The notes beneath the pieces were generated by a model, which worked only from the letters and a program-made list of their open reading frames with translations, did no database searches and had not been told where the DNA came from. 64,000 nucleotides of DNA from Actinomycetota bacterium (GTDB lineage: Bacteria > Actinomycetota > Geothermincolia > Geothermincolales > RBG-13-55-18): assembly GCA_014360655.1 (NCBI GenBank), contig JACIXC010000004.1, positions 1 through 64,000 of the forward strand, given 5' to 3'. The stretch's first letter is position 1; every line of letters begins with the position of its first letter. Position numbers and translations under genes: made by a program. Of the stretch, positions 20,761 through 31,857 are shown one piece after another.

Positions 20761-21430
20761 TCCTTACTGCTTCCGGCCCGGGGCCTCAGGGTAACGGTCT
20801 CGCTCGCAGGCTCGCTGCGACCGACCCGGTCGTTCCCGGCCTCAGCAAGGTGCGTTTCCTTCCTTCTTCCGGCGGCCGGGCCGCCGGGTAACGGTCTCGC
20901 TCGCAGGCTCGCTGCGACCGACCCGGTCGTTCCCGGCCTTAGTGGTTGCGTATAAGGAGGCCGGGCCGGGGTTTCGTGCTCGCTCCGCGACGCGCGGCCT
21001 CGCGATGGTTTCCCCTCTTCATGCAGGAGCTCCATCCATGCAAGGGTTTATCACCTACCTTCCTCGTCCGGAGGCCGCTTGCGATGTCGCTCGCCCGACC
21101 CCCGGACCCGGCCTTGGTGGGTGGTTCAGTAAAGGCTCGCTGCGACCGACCCTGTAGTTCCCGGCCTTGGTGGGTGGGAATCGGGAGGCCGCTTGCGATG
21201 TCCCTCGCCCGATCCCCGGACCCGGCCTTGGTGGGTGATTCAGCAAAGGCTCGCTGCGACCGACCCTGTAGTTCCCCGGGCTGGGTGGTTGCGTGTCCGT
21301 ACTGCTTCCGGCCCGGGGCCTCAGGGTAACGGTCTCGCTCGGCGCCGCGCGCCTTTCCCGTGCATGCGAAACACGGGGTAGGCGTCCTCGCTGCGACCGA
21401 CCCTGTAGTTCCCCGGGCTTCGCACCTCGC
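20761..21430. repeat. Compound repeat cassette, copy 1
   Basis: About 670 bp of nested repeats with no credible gene. Two hairpin units (about 20788-20842 and 20886-20939) contain GGGTAACGG, TCGCTCGCAG, CTGCGACCGA and GGTCGTTCCCGGCCT. Between them is a GCAAGGTGCGTTTCC linker. Then come an ATAAGGAGGCCGGGCCGGG block, two ~97-bp units beginning GAGGCCGCTTGCGATGT (21071-21166 and 21184-21282), and a last hairpin unit (21301-21419) interrupted by an extra ~40 bp. The same order of blocks recurs at 33713-34110. Confidence 0.85.
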
Positions 21431-23969: not shown

Positions 23970-24118
23970 CATAAAGGTATAAAAGCCGGGGCCTATGCCC
24001 GAAGGCGCCGGGTAACCATGTCCGGCTGCATGTGTTTATAATGTGCGAAAATACCGAAAATACCGAACACAACGCGGCGGATATGGTTGCGGCGGCAGAA
24101 AGGGAGGCCGGTTTCGCC

Positions 24119-24694
24119 ATGAGCGGCGACGGGAACCAGGGAACCTGCCACGAGGACGGAGTCCTGGTGCGCAAGGCGCAGGAGAAGCGCGAGGACTTCG
24201 ACGCTCTCTACAGGAAGTACCTCAAAAAGGTATACACGTATGTCTTTTACCGGGTGGGAAAGGCGGAGGATGCCGAGGACATCACCGAGAGCGTGTTCCT
24301 GCATGCGTTGCTGCACCTCGACCGCTACCAGGACAGGGGCATACCCTTTTCCGCCTGGTTGCTGCGCATAGCCCACAACCTGGTGGCCAACTGGCACCGG
24401 GACACCGGCCGGCACCGTTCCGTGAACCTGGAAACCGCGGAGGGCCTGAAGGACATGTCCCCCTCGCCGGAGGAGAGCGCGGAAAACAGGGAGGAGATAC
24501 GGCGCCTGAGGGAGGCCTTCTCTTCCCTGCCCGAAGACAGGCAGCAGGTACTCATCCTCCGTTACGCGGAGGGGATGAAACATCGCGAGATCGGAGAGGT
24601 GATGGGAAAGAGCACGGGGGCGGTCAAGGTCCTCGTGCACCGCTCCCTGATAACCCTGCACAGGCGCCTTTCCGAAAAGGAGGAAGAGGGATGA
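24119..24694 (+). CDS. ECF-type RNA polymerase sigma factor
   Basis: An alternative sigma factor with region 2 (EDFDALYRKYLKKVYTYVFYRVG, then EDITESVFLHALLHLDRY and FSAWLLRIAHNLVANWHRD) and region 4 (LPEDRQQVLILRYAEGMKHREIGEVMGKSTGAVKVLVHRSL), and no region 3. The frame is open from a GTG at 24032, but only the ATG at 24119 has a ribosome-binding site (GGGAGG, 11 bases upstream). Its codon use also fits the rest of the gene better than the 24032-24118 stretch. The product has 191 residues. The stop overlaps the next ATG (ATGA), so it is coupled to a small membrane protein that may be its regulator. The target regulon is unknown. Confidence 0.88.
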   Translation: MSGDGNQGTCHEDGVLVRKAQEKREDFDALYRKYLKKVYTYVFYRVGKAEDAEDITESVFLHALLHLDRYQDRGIPFSAWLLRIAHNLVANWHRDTGRHRSVNLETAEGLKDMSPSPEESAENREEIRRLREAFSSLPEDRQQVLILRYAEGMKHREIGEVMGKSTGAVKVLVHRSLITLHRRLSEKEEEG

Positions 24695-24996
24695 TGGAGA
24701 AGGGGATGCAAGGAGAGAGGAAGCGTGGTTACCGCCACACGGTGAGGCTGCTCCAGGAGTACCTGCGCCCCGTGGACCCCAGGCCGAGCTTCTCACGCCA
24801 CCTGGAAGACCTATGCCGCAGCATGGGGGCGGACGAGTTCGTGATGGCGGAGGCCGTGGAGCGGGGGGAAAGCGCCTCGCGGCGCAGGATGATCCTGGGC
24901 GGCGCCGTCTTTTCCGCCCTTCCCTTTCTCGGGGTCGCGGCTTATGCTATAGGCAGACATCTGCAGAGGCGTAGGGTCGTGGCCATGGGCGTCTAA
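24691..24996 (+). CDS. Small membrane protein coupled to the sigma factor, possible anti-sigma
   Basis: 101 residues starting at overlapping ATGATG codons. The N-terminal ~70 residues are cytosolic and charged (TVRLLQEYLRPVDPRPSFSRHLEDLC), a motif common at the start of proteins encoded beside ECF sigma factors. One membrane span near the C-terminus (MILGGAVFSALPFLGVAAYAIG) is followed by a basic tail. There is no HxxxCxxC zinc motif, so it is not a standard ZAS anti-sigma factor. A role as membrane anchor or antagonist of the sigma factor is inferred from coupling alone. Confidence 0.7.
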   Translation: MMEKGMQGERKRGYRHTVRLLQEYLRPVDPRPSFSRHLEDLCRSMGADEFVMAEAVERGESASRRRMILGGAVFSALPFLGVAAYAIGRHLQRRRVVAMGV

Positions 24997-25008
24997 GGGA
25001 AAGGAGCC

Positions 25009-25254
25009 ATGAGGAGGGAAGAGGTTTTCGCGGTGGTGCGCGCCGCGCTGGCAGAGGCTTTGGAAATACCGGAGGACGAGATCGGGGAGGATTCGCGCTT
25101 CAAGGAGGACCTGGAAGCGGATTCCCTTGACCTGGTGGAGCTCCTCCTGGAGATGGAAAGCGAGTACGGGTTCAAGGTCGACGACGAGGAGGCGGCGGAG
25201 ATCCTCACCGTGGGGGACGCGGTGGACCTGATACTGCGCAAGACAGCCGCTTGA
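25009..25254 (+). CDS. Acyl carrier protein
   Basis: 81 residues, acidic, with the phosphopantetheine site Ser39 in EADSLDLVELL. Length and the four-helix pattern (EEVFAVVRAAL, LVELLLEMESEYGF, ILTVGDAVDLIL) are those of AcpP. It is not beside fatty-acid synthase genes. Instead it lies between a sigma factor and two activase-like Fe-S proteins, so it may be a dedicated carrier rather than the housekeeping ACP. The gap of 12 bases to the preceding gene and 27 to the next suggests one operon. Confidence 0.9.
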   Translation: MRREEVFAVVRAALAEALEIPEDEIGEDSRFKEDLEADSLDLVELLLEMESEYGFKVDDEEAAEILTVGDAVDLILRKTAA

Positions 25255-25281
25255 ACGATCGAGTCTGGGGTTGGTCTGGCG

Positions 25282-26271
25282 ATGAGAGTGGGCATCCCCG
25301 GCGGGCTGCTCTACTACCGCTACGGAAAGCTGTGGACTTCCTTCCTGCAAGCCCTGGGAGCCGAGGTGGTGGAATCCGGTGAGACCACCCGTTCCATCCT
25401 GAGCTCCGGGGTGAGCAAGGCGGAGAACGAGAGCTGCCTGCCGGTCAAGGTATTCTACGGGCACGTGCTGGCCCTGCGGGACAAGGTGGACGCCATCTTC
25501 GTGCCCCGCCTGGTGAGCGTGCGCAAGGGTACCCATACCTGTCCCAAGATGCTGGGGTTGCCCGACCTGGCGCGCGTGGCCGTGGAGGACAGGACCCCCA
25601 TCATAGCACCTACCATTAATTTCCAGGAAGGCATGTGGGCCAATTACAGGGCGGTCTATTCGCTGGGTCGTCTCTTCACCCACAACCCCTGGCGCATTAT
25701 ACGGGCGGGGATCAGGGCCTGGAGGGAGCACCGCCTCTACCTGGAGAGGCTCACCCTGGGCCTCGACCACCGCAGCGCCCTGCGGGGGGAGGCGGAGAAC
25801 CTGCTCTGCGAGGGAAGGGAACTGCGCATAGCGGTCATCGGCCACCATTACAACGTCTACGACACCTTCACCACCATGTCGCTGCTGGACCGCCTCAGCT
25901 CCATGGGGGTGGACGTGGTCACCGCGGACATGGTGCCGGAGGACCTGCGCAAGAAGGAGCTCAAGCGCCTTCCCAAGGACATCTACTGGAGTTACGAACA
26001 GGAGATAGCGGGCGCCATCCTCGCCTGCACCCGGCACCGCCTGGTTGACGGGATAATCTTCATGATCTCCTTCCCCTGCGGTCCCGACTCCATCGTGCGC
26101 GTGCTGTGCGAACAGGAGAACAAGCGCATGGGAGGGGTGCCCCTCCTCGCGCTGGTCATCGATGAGCACACCGGCGAGGGAGGTTTCCTCACCCGCATCG
26201 AGGCTTTCGTGGACATGCTGTGGAGGAAGAAGGGAGAGGCGGCGAGGGAGAGGGAGGCGGTGGCGGTATGA
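25282..26271 (+). CDS. Acyl-CoA dehydratase activase-related protein (DUF2229), paralogue 1
   Basis: 329 residues of the DUF2229 / 2-hydroxyacyl-CoA dehydratase-activase-associated family. The signature start MRVGIPGGLLYYRYGKLWTSFLQALGAEVV, C52 in ESCLPVKVFYGH, C87 in GTHTCPKMLGLPDL and C266 in MISFPCGPDS are visible. Three such cysteines can ligate a [4Fe-4S] cluster, as in the related dehydratase subunits. The ATPase-type activator domain itself (the ASKHA part of HgdC/FldI) is absent. The next gene is a paralogue and overlaps by ATGA, so the two probably form a heteromer. The substrate is unknown; the adjacent ACP raises the possibility of a carrier-bound one. Confidence 0.85.
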   Translation: MRVGIPGGLLYYRYGKLWTSFLQALGAEVVESGETTRSILSSGVSKAENESCLPVKVFYGHVLALRDKVDAIFVPRLVSVRKGTHTCPKMLGLPDLARVAVEDRTPIIAPTINFQEGMWANYRAVYSLGRLFTHNPWRIIRAGIRAWREHRLYLERLTLGLDHRSALRGEAENLLCEGRELRIAVIGHHYNVYDTFTTMSLLDRLSSMGVDVVTADMVPEDLRKKELKRLPKDIYWSYEQEIAGAILACTRHRLVDGIIFMISFPCGPDSIVRVLCEQENKRMGGVPLLALVIDEHTGEGGFLTRIEAFVDMLWRKKGEAAREREAVAV

Positions 26272-27380
26272 GGATAAGCTGGCCCCACATGGGCAGCCTC
26301 GAATTCGTGCTCAGCAGCGTCTTCGAGGAACTGGGGCTGGAGTACGTGCTCCCCCCGCCCAGCTCGCAGCGGACCCTGGAGCTGGGCGCGCGTTACGGTC
26401 CGGAGTTCGCCTGCTTCCCCCTCAAGACCACCCTGGGGAATTTCATCGAGGCCATAGAGGCGGGGGCGGACACCCTCATCATGGTGGCGGGAAGGGGACC
26501 CTGCCGCTTCGGCTTCTATGCCGAGACGCAGCGGCGCATCCTGGAGGAGGCGGGCTACGAGTTCCGCATGGTGCCCCTCGAGTTCGAGCCGGCAAGGATC
26601 CCGACCACCGTGCGCAGGCTGCGTGAGCTCAAGCAGGGGAGGTCATGGTCCTCGCTGTTCAGGGCCATAAAGTTCGCCTTGAGCAAGGCCTATCTCATAG
26701 ACCGCCTGGAGCAGCAGGCGCTGCACCAGCGCTGCCTGGACCGGGAGAGGGGCGCCACGACGAAGGCCCTGGAGAAGTGCTACCGCATGGTCTGGAAGGC
26801 GGATTCCTATGCCTCCCTGCGCAGGGTCGAGGAGGAGGCGTTCGCCCTCCTTCTCTCGCTGCCCCGCGCGGAGCGGGAGACGGTGAAGGTGGGTATCGTG
26901 GGAGAGTTCTACCTCGTGCTCGAGCCCTTCTTCAACCTGGGGGTGGAGGAGCAACTGGGAAACCTCGGCGCCTACGTGGAGCGCAACATCTACCTCACCG
27001 ACTGGCTGCGGCCCTCGGGGAGGAACCCGGTGGCCGGCCACCACGACCGCGAGTCGGAGGAGGCGGCACGCCCCTACCTCACCCACTTCGTGGGAGGAGA
27101 GGGGCTGCATTCCGTGGGGGGTACCGTGCTTTACCGGCGCCATGGCTTCGACGGCGTGGTGCACATCATGCCCTTCACCTGCATGCCCGAGACCATCGCC
27201 AAGAGCATCCTCCCCCAGGTCTCCCGCGACCTGGGCATCCCCGTCCTCTCCCTGGTCATCGACGAGATGACCGGGAAGGCCGGCGTGGCCACGCGCCTGG
27301 AGGCCTTCGTGGACCTGGCGCGTTTCCGCCGTCGCGCGGGGGAACGGGGGCTGGACCTTTCCCTGCAGCCGGCGTTCTGA
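26268..27380 (+). CDS. Acyl-CoA dehydratase activase-related protein, paralogue 2
   Basis: 370 residues. The frame is open before it, but the ATG at 26268 overlaps the preceding stop and begins MRISWPHMGSLEFVLSSVFEELG. It has the same three-cysteine plan as its neighbour: C49 in FACFPLKTTLGNF, C79 in GRGPCRFGFYAE and C305 in IMPFTCMPETIA. The C-terminal VLSLVIDEMTGKAGVATRLEAFVD matches ALVIDEHTGEGGFLTRIEAFVD in paralogue 1, which shows common ancestry. It has a helical insert (about 115-200) that paralogue 1 matches only partly. Likely function is a low-potential Fe-S electron-transfer or radical-generating unit. Family membership is solid, the reaction is not. Confidence 0.85.
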   Translation: MRISWPHMGSLEFVLSSVFEELGLEYVLPPPSSQRTLELGARYGPEFACFPLKTTLGNFIEAIEAGADTLIMVAGRGPCRFGFYAETQRRILEEAGYEFRMVPLEFEPARIPTTVRRLRELKQGRSWSSLFRAIKFALSKAYLIDRLEQQALHQRCLDRERGATTKALEKCYRMVWKADSYASLRRVEEEAFALLLSLPRAERETVKVGIVGEFYLVLEPFFNLGVEEQLGNLGAYVERNIYLTDWLRPSGRNPVAGHHDRESEEAARPYLTHFVGGEGLHSVGGTVLYRRHGFDGVVHIMPFTCMPETIAKSILPQVSRDLGIPVLSLVIDEMTGKAGVATRLEAFVDLARFRRRAGERGLDLSLQPAF

Positions 27381-27869: not shown

Positions 27870-28100
27870 ATGGCGGACGAAAAAGAGGAGTTGTTGAACA
27901 AGGAAATCGGCGCCTACGAGGAGGAGCTCAAGGTGCTCGCGGGCAAGCTCCAGGAGCTGGCCGGAGTCGACTGCTCCTTCGGGGCGTGTGTGTTCGATCC
28001 CGAGATGCAGGACGTGGAGGCCAAGCTGGCCGAGATCGAGAAGAGGAAGAAGGTCCTGGCCGAGGTGATGGACGCCCTCAAGCAGTGCGGCATAGAGTGA
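27870..28100 (+). CDS. Small coiled-coil protein with central Cys pair
   Basis: 76 residues: two heptad-rich helices (about 5-30, EELLNKEIGAYEEELKVLAGKLQEL, and 45-70, MQDVEAKLAEIEKRKKVLAEVMDAL) joined by GVDCSFGACVFDPE, giving an antiparallel hairpin with C-x5-C at the turn and a third Cys near the C-terminus (QCGIE). It has an excellent ribosome-binding site, its own promoter and a strong terminator, so it is a monocistronic, probably well-expressed gene. No family recognised. The Cys pair at the tip could be redox-active or metal-binding. Confidence 0.85.
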   Translation: MADEKEELLNKEIGAYEEELKVLAGKLQELAGVDCSFGACVFDPEMQDVEAKLAEIEKRKKVLAEVMDALKQCGIE

Positions 28101-28492: not shown

Positions 28493-28990
28493 CTATTCCA
28501 CCTCGAAGAACTTCTCCTCCGGGGCGCCGCAGACGGGACATTTTTCGGGCACGACGTCGTCGGCCACGTAGCCGCACACGCCGCATACGAAGTAGGACGG
28601 GATCCTCTCGGCCACCAGGTGCTGCAGGGCGCCCTCGTAGAGCCTGGCATGCCGCTCCTCGACGTCGCGCGCGTAGGCGAACATCATCGCCGCCGCCCTC
28701 TCGCCCTCCGCCTCGGCGTCGGCGATGAAGGAGTCGTAAGCCACCTGGGCGATCTTCTGCTCGGAGGCCAGGGCCTCCTCAAGGTTCGTCTCCGTGTCCT
28801 TTATCTCGCGCAGGAGGCGCAGGTTGTTGAAGGCATGCACGCTCTCCGATTCGGCCACCGCCCGGAATAGCCTGGCCACCCCCGGGTATTCCTCCTCCTC
28901 GGCCTTGGCGGCGAAGGCCTTCAGGCGCACCACGGCCTTCGACTCGCCCGTATAGGCGTCGTAAAGGTTCTTCCTCGTCTTGTCGCCCAT
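28493..28990 (-). CDS. rbr: Rubrerythrin
   Basis: 165 residues. An N-terminal ferritin-like four-helix bundle carries a diiron site (ExxH-type motifs in YTGESKAVVRL, ESESVHAFN, ASEQKIAQVAY and VEERHARLYEGAL). A C-terminal rubredoxin-like domain (YFVCGVCGYVADDVVPEKCPVCG) binds one iron with four Cys. It reduces hydrogen peroxide in anaerobes using NAD(P)H-derived electrons. This order (bundle then rubredoxin) is the classical one. It is probably transcribed alone on the minus strand; the sulfur operon upstream starts a separate series. Confidence 0.94.
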   Translation of the reverse strand: MGDKTRKNLYDAYTGESKAVVRLKAFAAKAEEEEYPGVARLFRAVAESESVHAFNNLRLLREIKDTETNLEEALASEQKIAQVAYDSFIADAEAEGERAAAMMFAYARDVEERHARLYEGALQHLVAERIPSYFVCGVCGYVADDVVPEKCPVCGAPEEKFFEVE

Positions 28991-29198
28991 GCTTCCCCCT
29001 TTCCTGTCTTTTCTCCGTCCTTCGTGATGCTTCGGGTGTCGCGAGGCCCCGACATGTCTTCAGGTTCAAGGTTCGGCGCCTCTCCCTTCCCTGCCGCACA
29101 GAACAGGGCGACCCTTTGCGGAAGAGGGTCCGGTGCAAAAGCCTGTCCCGATGACCGCGGCCGCTCCGATGCCGTGAGGCGGGACGTCAGCGACCTCA

Positions 29199-29438
29199 TC
29201 AACCGCCTCTCTTGCGCACGAAGACGTGGTATTCGCCGTCCCTCTCCTCGAGTCCCAGGAATTCATGTCCCGTCTTCGCGCACCAGGCGGGCATGTCGCT
29301 CACGATGCCCTTGTCGTCGGCGACGACCTCCAGCACCTCCCCCTCCGCGAGCTCGCCTATCTCCTGGGAGGTCTTGACGATGGGCATGGGGCAGTAGAGG
29401 CCCACGCAATCCACCACCCTGTCCGCCTGCAAGGACAT
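29199..29438 (-). CDS. TusA-family sulfur carrier
   Basis: 79 residues with the family's Cys-Pro-x-Pro: VVDCVGLYCPMPIVKTSQEIGELAEGEVLEVVADD. The active cysteine accepts persulfide sulfur. AAAGGAGG is only two bases before the ATG at 29438 but eight before a TTG at 29432, so the true start may be the TTG. A longer frame to 29495 has no ribosome-binding site. The last gene of a minus-strand set with dsrE-like, zinc-ribbon, iscU, iscS and thioredoxin genes, it is the expected acceptor in a persulfide relay. Confidence 0.9.
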   Translation of the reverse strand: MSLQADRVVDCVGLYCPMPIVKTSQEIGELAEGEVLEVVADDKGIVSDMPAWCAKTGHEFLGLEERDGEYHVFVRKRGG

Positions 29439-29566
29439 CACCTCCTTTATCCACGTTGCGTGCCTTATCATACTCCAGAACCGCTTTCTCGCCACCTGCC
29501 GCGGCGGTCATGTGTTCCGGCGCTGACCGCGGCCCGCCGCCCCCCTGCCCCGAAGCCCGCCGGACA

Positions 29567-30064
29567 TCAGATGAAGAGGTTTATCGCGGAGCGGGAAGCC
29601 TTTTCCACGTAGGTGGCGGCGCCGGCGAATTCGTCCACCTCGGGGATGAAATCCTCCTCCGTGAGGCCCATGAGGGCCATGGAGGTGGTGCAGGCGATGA
29701 AGCGCACCCCCAGCTCCCCGGCCAGGGATATCATCTCCCCGAGGGAGGGCATGCGGAACTCGCGCATGAGCACCTTCATGGCCGCCTTGCCGCCACCCAG
29801 CATGTGTAGGCGGGAGAGGGGCAGGCGGGCGGCGCCCCCGCGGTTCAGAAGGCCCAGCATGCGTTGCAGAAAGGTCTTGCCGCCCCCGCTTCCCCGTTCC
29901 TTCCGGATGACGTTGAGGCCCCAGAAGGTGAAGAACATGGTCACCTCCATGCCCATGGACGCGGCAGCGGTGGCGATGTTGAAGGCGGCAAGGGCCCGGT
30001 CCAGCTCGCCGCTGAAGACCACGATGGTCGCTACCTCTTCCCTGTCGCTCACGGTACTGTTCAC
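29567..30064 (-). CDS. DsrE/DsrF-like (DsrE2) sulfur-relay protein
   Basis: 165 residues of the DsrE2 / peroxiredoxin-like family: ATIVVFSGELDRALAAFNIATAAASMGMEVTMFFTFWGLNVI, a central helical LGLLNRGGA segment, and FIACTTSMALMGL with the conserved cysteine. Family members move persulfide sulfur and often sit beside tusA, as here. The gap to tusA is 128 bases, and the zinc-ribbon gene is 36 bases upstream. Confidence 0.9.
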   Translation of the reverse strand: MNSTVSDREEVATIVVFSGELDRALAAFNIATAAASMGMEVTMFFTFWGLNVIRKERGSGGGKTFLQRMLGLLNRGGAARLPLSRLHMLGGGKAAMKVLMREFRMPSLGEMISLAGELGVRFIACTTSMALMGLTEEDFIPEVDEFAGAATYVEKASRSAINLFI

Positions 30065-30100
30065 CCCCCTTGCGAATCGTGCGCCCCGGGGTGTCCGCGC

Positions 30101-30289
30101 CTACAGGGGCTGCCCGCAGTGGGGGCACTTCTCGGCGCCTTCCCGCACCGCCTCTCCGCAGTGGCTGCAGGCGACGATGACGATCCTGCAGGGCTGGCAG
30201 AAGGCGGGAAGGTCCACGGCGGCCTCGATCTCCGCCTCGCAATACGGGCACTTGCAGACGGTGCCCTTTTCCCTGTGCTCCTCTTGCAT
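30101..30289 (-). CDS. Small double zinc-ribbon protein
   Basis: 62 residues from the ATG at 30289, which follows GGAAGGAAG. The metal ligands are CKCPYC, FCQPC, CSHCGEAV and KCPHCGQPL: two ribbons in tandem. It begins one base after the iscU stop, so it is translationally linked to the Fe-S genes. No further family call is possible. It may be a metal or protein-binding adaptor for the relay. Confidence 0.75.
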   Translation of the reverse strand: MQEEHREKGTVCKCPYCEAEIEAAVDLPAFCQPCRIVIVACSHCGEAVREGAEKCPHCGQPL

Positions 30290-30290
30290 C

Positions 30291-30674
30291 TCACTTCCTT
30301 CCTTTCTTTTCCAGGTAATCCTCGATGGCCTTGTGCAGGGCATCCGCTCCCAGGTTGGAACAGTGCATCTTGTTGGCCGGCAGGCCGCCCAGCTCCTCGG
30401 CCACGTCGTTGCGGGTGATCTTCAGGGCCTCCTCCAGGGTCTTTCCCTTGGCCATCTCGCTCACCATGCTGGAGACGGCTATGGCGGCGCCGCATCCGAA
30501 GGTCTTGAACTTGACGTCGGAGAGGCGGCCCTCGTCGTCCACCTTGATGTAGAAGGTCATCATGTCCCCGCACACGGGGTTGCCCACCTCGCCAACCCCG
30601 TCGGCGTCCTCGATCTCACCCACGTTGCGCGGGTTGGTGAAGTGGTCCATGACCACGTCGCTGTACTGCACCAT
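30291..30674 (-). CDS. iscU: Iron-sulfur cluster scaffold IscU/NifU
   Basis: 127 residues, length as IscU. The three cluster cysteines are in GNPVCGD (with the assembly-modulating Asp), KTFGCGAAIAVSSM and MHCSNLG. MVQYSDVVMDHFTNPRNVGEIED is the usual N-terminus. The LPPVK motif bound by HscA is replaced by LPANKMHC, as in many NifU-type and archaeal scaffolds, so no dedicated HscAB chaperone is expected. It lies four bases after the iscS-like gene. Confidence 0.94.
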   Translation of the reverse strand: MVQYSDVVMDHFTNPRNVGEIEDADGVGEVGNPVCGDMMTFYIKVDDEGRLSDVKFKTFGCGAAIAVSSMVSEMAKGKTLEEALKITRNDVAEELGGLPANKMHCSNLGADALHKAIEDYLEKKGRK

Positions 30675-30678
30675 GCTC

Positions 30679-31857
30679 TCACCCCCTTTCCTTGAGGTAC
30701 TTCGCGTATAGCGGCGACATCTGCCGCAACCTCTCCACGATGGGAGGAAAGACCTCCAGGACGTAGTCGACGTCCTGCATGGTATTATGCGGCCCGAAGC
30801 TGAAGAGGATGGAACCCTGGGCCCTCTCCGGCGGCACCCCCATGGCGGCGAGCACGTGGGAGCCCTTGAGGGCCCGGGAGGTGCAGGCCGATCCGCTGGA
30901 TACCGCCACGCCCTGCTGGTCCAGGAAGAGGAGCATCCCCTCCCCCTCTATGAACTCCACGGCAAAGCTTGCGTTCCAGGGCAGGCGCTCCACGGGATGG
31001 CCGGTGAGGTGCACGTGCTCCACCCTGCGCGGCAGGCCCTCGATGAGGGCGTCACGCAGGCCGCGCAGGTAGGCGCTCCTTTCCGTCATGCGCTCGCGGG
31101 CCAGCTGCGCCGCCACGCCCATGCCCACTATGCCGGGGACGTTTTCCGTGCCGCCCCTCCTGCCGCTCTCCTGCACGCCGCCGTCGAGAAGGGGGATGAG
31201 GCGCTGGCCGCGTTTCACCCACAGCGCCCCCGCGCCCTGCGGGCCGTAGAGGAGGTCCGAGGATAGGGAGAGGGCCTGCACTCCCAGTTCCCCGACATCG
31301 ATGGGGATGTGGGCGGCCGCGGCCACGGCGTCCGTGTGGAAGGGTACCTCCCTCTCCGCCGCCAGGCGGGCCGCCTCGGCGACGGGCTGGACGGTGCCCA
31401 CCTCGCCGTTGGCCAGCATCACCGAGACCAGGACGGTGTCGTCCCGGATGAGGGAGCGCAGCTCGTCGAGGTCTATGCGGCCGTGCTCGTCCACGGGGAC
31501 CAGGTCCAGCTCGTATCCCTGCTTTTCCAGGGAGCGCGCCGCGTGCAGGACGGAGAAGTGCTCCACCGCCGAGACCACGACGTGCCTGCCCTTGCGGCGG
31601 GAACCGGCGACCATGCCCTTCACCGCCAGGTTGTTGGCCTCCGTGCCGTTGGAAGTGAAGATGATCTCCTCCGGCGCCGCCCCGATGAGGGCCGCAACGC
31701 GCTCCCGCGCCTCCTCCACCGCCTCCCTCGCAGCGTCCCCCCTGCCGTGCAGGGAAGAAGGGTTCCCGTAGCGCTCTCCGAGGAAGGGGAGCATGGCATC
31801 CCTTGCTTCCGGAAGAAGGGGAGAGGCCGCGTAATTGTCCAGGTATACCTCTCTCAT
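30679..31857 (-). CDS. iscS: Cysteine-desulfurase homologue (IscS/NifS) lacking the PLP lysine
   Basis: 392 residues with the class V aminotransferase fold. Kept: YLDNYAASP start, SNGTEANN, His100 in VEHFSV (ring-stacking His), HTDAV and RRGGTENVPGIVGMG, and the catalytic-loop Cys325 in SSGSACTSRAL. Changed: the Schiff-base motif, normally SAHK-YGPKG, reads SSDLLYGPQG (199-208), so His and Lys become Asp and Leu. The Gln that contacts PLP after HTDAV is Ala179. A known parallel is Archaeoglobus fulgidus IscS, which also lacks this Lys. The start ATGA overlaps the stop of the thioredoxin-like gene, and iscU follows at four bases. It may act as a platform or cysteine/persulfide binder rather than a normal desulfurase, or it may need free PLP. 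Confidence 0.9.
   Translation of the reverse strand: MREVYLDNYAASPLLPEARDAMLPFLGERYGNPSSLHGRGDAAREAVEEARERVAALIGAAPEEIIFTSNGTEANNLAVKGMVAGSRRKGRHVVVSAVEHFSVLHAARSLEKQGYELDLVPVDEHGRIDLDELRSLIRDDTVLVSVMLANGEVGTVQPVAEAARLAAEREVPFHTDAVAAAAHIPIDVGELGVQALSLSSDLLYGPQGAGALWVKRGQRLIPLLDGGVQESGRRGGTENVPGIVGMGVAAQLARERMTERSAYLRGLRDALIEGLPRRVEHVHLTGHPVERLPWNASFAVEFIEGEGMLLFLDQQGVAVSSGSACTSRALKGSHVLAAMGVPPERAQGSILFSFGPHNTMQDVDYVLEVFPPIVERLRQMSPLYAKYLKERG

Follow-up and report, generated by a model that had tools for sequence, protein, structure and literature searches.

The 64,000-nt stretch analysed here (the window; positions 1 to 64,000, forward strand, of contig JACIXC010000004.1, assembly GCA_014360655.1) comes from an Actinomycetota bacterium of the order Ca. 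Geothermincolales and carries a run of five plus-strand genes at positions 24119-27380. These encode an extracytoplasmic function (ECF) sigma factor, a one-span membrane protein, an acyl carrier protein (ACP) and two subunits, here named A and B. The favoured reading, to which we give a probability of about 40%, is that A and B form an ATP-driven radical reductase of a split PlsA/Ger type, acting on lipid acyl (thio)esters with the ACP as a dedicated partner. It is preferred because of the gene order, the distinct ACP, the fold of A and B, an activase with a four-cysteine (Cys4) motif, the context of GpsA and type II fatty acid synthesis (FAS II) genes, and the presence of PlsX and an ACP synthase. 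The features of the locus are as follows.

24012..24042, plus strand: promoter-like element GTAAC-N15-GTGTTTATAAT, conserved, upstream of the sigma factor gene
24119..24694, plus strand: ECF sigma factor (Pfam Sigma70_r2, region 2, 60 bits; Sigma70_r4, region 4, 55 bits; NCBIfam sigma70-ECF above cut-off)
24691..24996, plus strand: membrane protein of 101 aa with one hydrophobic segment (hydropathy peak 1.8)
25009..25254, plus strand: ACP with DSL serine (PF00550, 49 bits; TIGR00517 above cut-off)
25282..26271, plus strand: A, Red1-like DUF2229 subunit with Cys 52/87/266 (PF09989, 151 bits)
26268..27380, plus strand: B, Red2-like subunit with Cys 49/79/305 (PF06050, 28.7 bits, cut-off 28.4)

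Along the run, the junctions measure a 4-nt overlap, a 12-nt gap, a 27-nt gap and a 4-nt overlap, in agreement with a preliminary description of this DNA, which had reported one run with overlaps or gaps under 30 bases. Conservation was followed in 31 genomes of the class, 18 from Ca. Geothermincolales and 13 from outside the order, and 29 of the 31 gave a match to A. Every one of the 18 has the sigma factor, ACP and A genes side by side and a homologue of the membrane protein; B was found in 17, and in the remaining genome (G019) the sequence stops early, so that the contig end has presumably truncated B. The ACP gene sits between the sigma pair and A-B throughout the 18 and is never separated from A-B. 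G027, one of the 18, has match coordinates identical to those of a contig of Candidatus Solincola tengchongensis, which NCBI assigns to Candidatus Geothermincolales. The five-gene run is therefore a conserved operon of Ca. Geothermincolales, and the scattering of its genes in relatives, which the preliminary description had named as a refutation, was not what the neighbourhood comparison found. The pairing it had singled out as unusual, a distinct ACP beside a three-cysteine pair together with a sigma factor and membrane protein, is likewise kept throughout the order. A tblastn search of plasmids gave nine records, each below 60% identity.

A and B had been described as two DUF2229 paralogues resembling dehydratase activases. 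The family assignment holds for A, which matches DUF2229 over its full length, and in part for B, which matches only profile positions 18-73 (41 bits) and exceeds the HGD-D cut-off barely. The resemblance to activases was not borne out. AlphaFold2 models (mean predicted local distance difference test, pLDDT, 93.3 for A and 90.2 for B) were compared with solved structures, and chains of the benzoyl-CoA reductase/2-hydroxyacyl-CoA dehydratase (BCR/HAD) superfamily and of double-cubane cluster proteins (DCCP) gave Z up to 15.3 for A and 15.7 for B, with the first unrelated rows at 9.0 and 9.7, respectively. Against 3o3n_B, Z was 14.9 and 15.4. Identity in the structural alignments to the superfamily is about 10-17%, and a sequence search of solved structures gave no more than weak matches to the beta subunit of 2-hydroxyacyl-CoA dehydratase (E 0.44 and 0.12). 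As judged from the models, A and B are predicted to be catalytic subunits of the BCR/HAD fold and not activases.

The matching three-cysteine patterns noticed earlier proved invariant. C52/C87/C266 of A are kept in 19/19 proteins and in 46/46 aligned proteins of a wider set, and C49/C79/C305 of B in 17/17 and 45/45. According to the accessible text of PMC11971306, the single-cluster subunit BzdO uses Cys95/128/380, BzdN carries a double cubane on six Cys, and a three-Cys site is described for HadB. The three cysteines of A and of B fit the single-cluster subunits and not the six-Cys BzdN. An assignment of A or B as a double-cubane subunit of the DCCP/BzdN type, for which six cysteines per subunit are expected, was accordingly rejected. 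The same genome holds a second pair, A'/B' (C6:20907-23167, equal to L013:7907-10167, minus strand), which is 35-37% identical to the window pair and has no adjoining ACP gene; A' clusters with other class members outside the ACP-linked clade described below.

Related loci were collected in a genome scan, of which the best 80 of 512 were named: seven in the window's order and 73 (L121-L193) outside it, some of the latter belonging to class genomes that also bear G handles (L166 is G008, and L160 mirrors a G005 contig). The ACP gene adjoins A-B in 7/7 loci of the order. Outside it, the usual form is a triad of A, B and an activase (57 of the 73 loci). Gene names given below for FAS II, NfnA/NfnB, sporulation, NifU/NifS and BioY were assigned by eye or with phmmer, and with Pfam or NCBIfam for a few proteins.

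No activase lies within the five-gene run. The preliminary description had suggested looking for the activator elsewhere in the genome, and the activase, ACT3, was located at C3:177355-178335; the A-B pair is on C4. ACT3 belongs to the ATP-type activase family PF01869 and scores 427-540 bits against the 57 triad activases, compared with 102-154 bits for two other activases of the same genome. It was found in 26/31 class genomes; the five without it are G012 and G013, which have no A either, and G015, G019 and G024, which do. Near its C-terminus, ACT3 carries the Cys4 motif Cx2Cx3Cx18C, present in 57/57 triad activases and in none of five other activases of its own genome. Among the class loci examined (L197 and L255 were left out of the motif scan), 24/27 have it; of the three that do not, two are incomplete matches and the third is a distant second match. 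The motif also occurs in 5/6 fused PlsA/Ger-like proteins, just before the A-like part, the sixth being broken by a stop, and the three cysteines of A are kept in 6/6 of these fused rows. With this shared motif, the A cysteines and the B-like part, ACT3-A-B is built like a split PlsA/Ger. A and B match the Red1 and Red2 reductase halves of the fused proteins, and ACT3 is the unlinked cognate activase of A-B.

A tree of A was calculated with a quick method from 95 of 114 sequences, near-copies having been dropped. The ACP-linked A rows fall into a single clade with support 100, placed among the Actinomycetota triads, and a branch of 3.7 changes per column separates off the fused PlsA/Ger-like rows. 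All parts of PlsA/Ger (Cys4 activation domain, Red1 and Red2) are present here, but spread over three genes; the activase is neither fused to Red1/Red2 nor in one operon with them, and A does not cluster by sequence with the fused forms, which are themselves PlsA/Ger-like by architecture alone. Membership of PlsA/Ger as such was rejected because of the long branch and the unlinked activase.

The operon ACP is the sole PF00550 match in the window's genome. Its DSL serine is kept in 18/18 operon ACPs, and an ACP synthase is encoded in the same genome (PF01648 at C4:165895-166221), as in 15/18 genomes of the order, so that the features of a functional ACP are in place. One ACP match was obtained in 12 of the 18 genomes and two in the other six, and in 6/6 of these the second ACP sits in a FAS II gene cluster. 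The operon ACPs share a mean identity of 76% among the 18, compared with 43% to the six FAS II ACPs of the order. Of the 18 genomes, five gave a strong match to ketoacyl synthase (E up to 1e-20). G015, the sixth genome with a FAS II cluster, yielded none; there the ACP is 224 bases away from where the contig begins. In the window's genome, the one genome searched for FabA/FabZ, neither had a match, and PF00109 gave no strong match, only weak ones of 20-32 bits. A housekeeping FAS II role of the operon ACP in this genome was rejected on these grounds, as no strong ketoacyl synthase match accompanies it in genome or cluster. The operon ACP forms a type of its own that goes with the operon and persists in genomes lacking FAS II. 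The preliminary description had held that an ACP alone in its genome would point to housekeeping. That is indeed the case in the window's genome, but a FAS II role is contradicted there by the missing enzymes, and six sister genomes have a second, different ACP in a FAS II cluster; a housekeeping role linked to PlsX is considered below. In the rest of the class, an ACP was found in 4/13 genomes and a ketoacyl synthase in the same four, while the nine genomes with no ACP also lack strong matches to ketoacyl synthase, ACP synthase and PlsX. FAS II is patchy in the class as a whole, with a strong ketoacyl synthase match in 9/31 genomes.

A second lipid gene is found at the same position in another lineage. 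Within the class, five of the nine genomes of family f4 encode GpsA (glycerol-3-phosphate dehydrogenase) directly upstream of A (by Pfam for one of them), and the sigma factor gene precedes GpsA in L094, L095 and L110, the three f4 cases with enough sequence. In G008, a FAS II cluster with a PlsC-like gene and an ACP lies upstream of sigma-GpsA-A-B; in this locus (L166) the FAS II-type ACP is about 3 kb upstream of A-B. With ACP in the order and GpsA in f4, two lineages place genes for two lipid precursors at the same spot.

Upstream of the operon, the promoter-like element occurs once in the window and in none of 100 shuffles. Counted per genome, GTAAC-N15/16-GTGTTTATAAT stands ahead of the sigma factor gene in 13/15 genomes of the window's family, while its strict form was not found in the order's three genomes outside that family. 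The sigma open reading frame (ORF) is already open from 24032; this position falls within the conserved element, and 24119 is therefore the likelier start. The 101-aa membrane protein, which has no match in Pfam or NCBIfam, is probably the anti-sigma partner of the sigma factor, and the two would probably switch the operon in response to membrane or redox state.

Under the favoured reading, the reaction might proceed in three steps. ACT3 would spend ATP to load a low-potential electron onto A-B, as expected from its family. A Fe-S cluster held by the three invariant cysteines of A, and another by those of B, could then pass the electron to the acyl (thio)ester carbonyl, giving a ketyl radical. 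The membrane-lipid acyl chain would be held on, or handed over from, the dedicated ACP, which could swap acyl groups with acyl phosphate via PlsX, and would leave as a reduced chain of an ether or alcohol type.

Several observations weigh against this reading. We infer both the acyl (thio)ester substrate and the contact of ACP with A-B, and the inferred nature of that contact counts against it. ACT3 was not found in the three A-bearing genomes named above, of which G024 is 96% complete, and the branch of 3.7 changes means that the substrate of PlsA/Ger cannot be transferred to A-B. No ACP gene lies beside A-B in the 73 loci outside the order, and A is present in 7/9 class genomes with no ACP match, so the A-B pair as such needs no ACP. 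Many Bacillota triads adjoin spoIIA/sigF/spoVA-like genes (17 to 21 of the 73 loci per cluster; one cluster member is GerA family by Pfam), and each half of an NfnA/NfnB-like oxidoreductase pair is found in 8/73 loci (one pair by Pfam). PlsX, present in 15/18 genomes of the order including the window's own, offers the ACP another job.

This last point leads to the best-surviving alternative, which is somewhat doubtful. The ACP could be the ordinary carrier of the cell, retained after loss of FAS II for phospholipid synthesis by PlsX/PlsC from scavenged fatty acids. A-B would then, like PlsA/Ger, use the glycerol ester of completed phospholipids as substrate, without ever encountering the ACP, the operon being shared as lipid genes under one sigma factor. 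Its status as the only ACP of a genome with PlsX and ACP synthase would suit such a role, as would its NCBIfam label (general ACP equivalog) and the joint absence of ACP, PlsX and ACP synthase from nine class genomes. The six genomes with a FAS II ACP nevertheless still keep a different ACP beside A-B, its place between the sigma pair and A-B is constant, and the PlsX gene itself is not near the operon ACP.

Less probable is an even more specific form of the favoured reading, which we regard as unlikely. Here, A-B would form the ketyl radical on an acyl-ACP thioester, which would make the pair the first in the BCR/HAD radical superfamily to depend on a carrier protein, and a reduced ether-type chain would be made before attachment to glycerol and without FAS II. 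In the open-licence literature, nothing was found that links acyl carrier protein, 2-hydroxyacyl-CoA dehydratase and activase, or a ketyl radical to acyl carrier protein.

It is distinctly improbable that A-B-ACT3 is a non-lipid, ATP-driven electron device, either a metalloenzyme activator or a DCCP-like reductase of small molecules, with the ACP as an accidental passenger. The best fold matches include DCCP, the sporulation-like and oxidoreductase neighbours of the triads would fit, triads also occur in Promethearchaeota and Heimdallarchaeota, and ACT3 matches the methanogenesis marker 15 model, though far below cut-off. Such a device leaves the ACP and GpsA partners unexplained, and the three invariant cysteines per subunit differ from the six listed for the BzdN double cubane. 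A-B pairs were observed in contigs of Candidatus Prometheoarchaeum and Heimdallarchaeota (L179, L183, L188 and L192), with an activase in the sequence around two of the four.

The least probable explanation, that A-B dehydrate an ACP-bound hydroxyacyl group as 2-hydroxyacyl-CoA dehydratases do on CoA esters, is compatible with the three cysteines per subunit in a heterodimer-type pair, the match to 3o3n_B and the lack of a FabA/FabZ match, but with no ketoacyl synthase there is no chain elongation to supply hydroxyacyl-ACP, the nearest architecture is PlsA/Ger and not a dehydratase, and dehydratase-like genes, which the preliminary description had suggested seeking elsewhere, appear by eye as separate pairs beside other activases (C11 and C3). 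The PlsA/Ger-like build and nearby lipid genes favour lipid acyl (thio)ester reduction instead.

Should the ACP prove to carry the substrate, the chemistry of the superfamily widens from CoA and phospholipid esters to protein-bound thioesters. The locus also provides a handle on PlsA-type pairs that lack an activation domain, as the Cys4 motif identifies the right activase and two lineages set genes for different lipid precursors (ACP and GpsA) beside the same pair. It further raises the question of how membranes are built in Geothermincolales that have no FAS II.

Other features of the window were noted as well. A sulfur/Fe-S gene group lies just downstream of B, at 28493-31857 on the minus strand. 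Pfam identifies rubrerythrin, TusA and DsrE-type genes in it, and ORFs that by eye resemble NifU and cysteine desulfurase come next. A 76-aa ORF at 27870-28100 has two cysteines (DCSFGACVF) and no Pfam match above cut-off. The intergenic region at 20761-21419 contains GC-rich direct repeats in which a 33-nt unit occurs five times, alongside longer partial copies; this repeat seems to be dispersed, because similar peptides occur in spurious ORFs on other contigs of the same genome.

Compared with known systems, the closest in parts are the plasmalogen synthase PlsA/PlsR and the glycerol ester reductase Ger, which have a Cys4 activase, a three-Cys Red1 and a B-like part. According to the accessible texts of PMC12838417, PMC8788747, PMC13274423 and PMC9702350, the characterised PlsA and Ger convert glycerol esters to vinyl ethers or ethers. 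These proteins are fused (about 1,420-1,470 aa in the genomes searched), whereas the window system consists of three separate genes, with an unlinked activase and its own ACP and sigma factor; in profile searches, the fused forms score 55-110 bits versus 300-544 for triad A. PlsA homologues that lack the activation domain occur widely in Bacillota, and the accessible part of PMC13274423 describes what they do as unclear; as far as that text goes, we infer that these homologues are the triads described here. A and B of Bacillota triads are direct relatives of the window pair, and the window's A nests among Actinomycetota triads. Unlike in the triads, the activase in the window's order is outside the operon, and the sigma factor, membrane protein and ACP have joined.

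With 2-hydroxyacyl-CoA dehydratase, class I benzoyl-CoA reductase and DCCP, the system has in common the fold of both subunits and a PF01869 activase, and, as in the dehydratase, each of two such subunits has three cysteines. It differs from the BCR/HAD superfamily in having no six-Cys subunit and in its neighbours, which are ACP or GpsA instead of CoA-pathway genes. The operon ACP shares the PP-binding fold and DSL serine with the FAS II ACP of the order, from which it is set apart by the low identity given above and by its position outside any FAS II cluster. Finally, homologues of Mss and ElbD are reported, in the accessible part of PMC11868695, for nine metagenome-assembled genomes of the class Humimicrobiia from the Black Sea; as this class belongs to the same phylum, ether lipids would be no surprise in the phylum.

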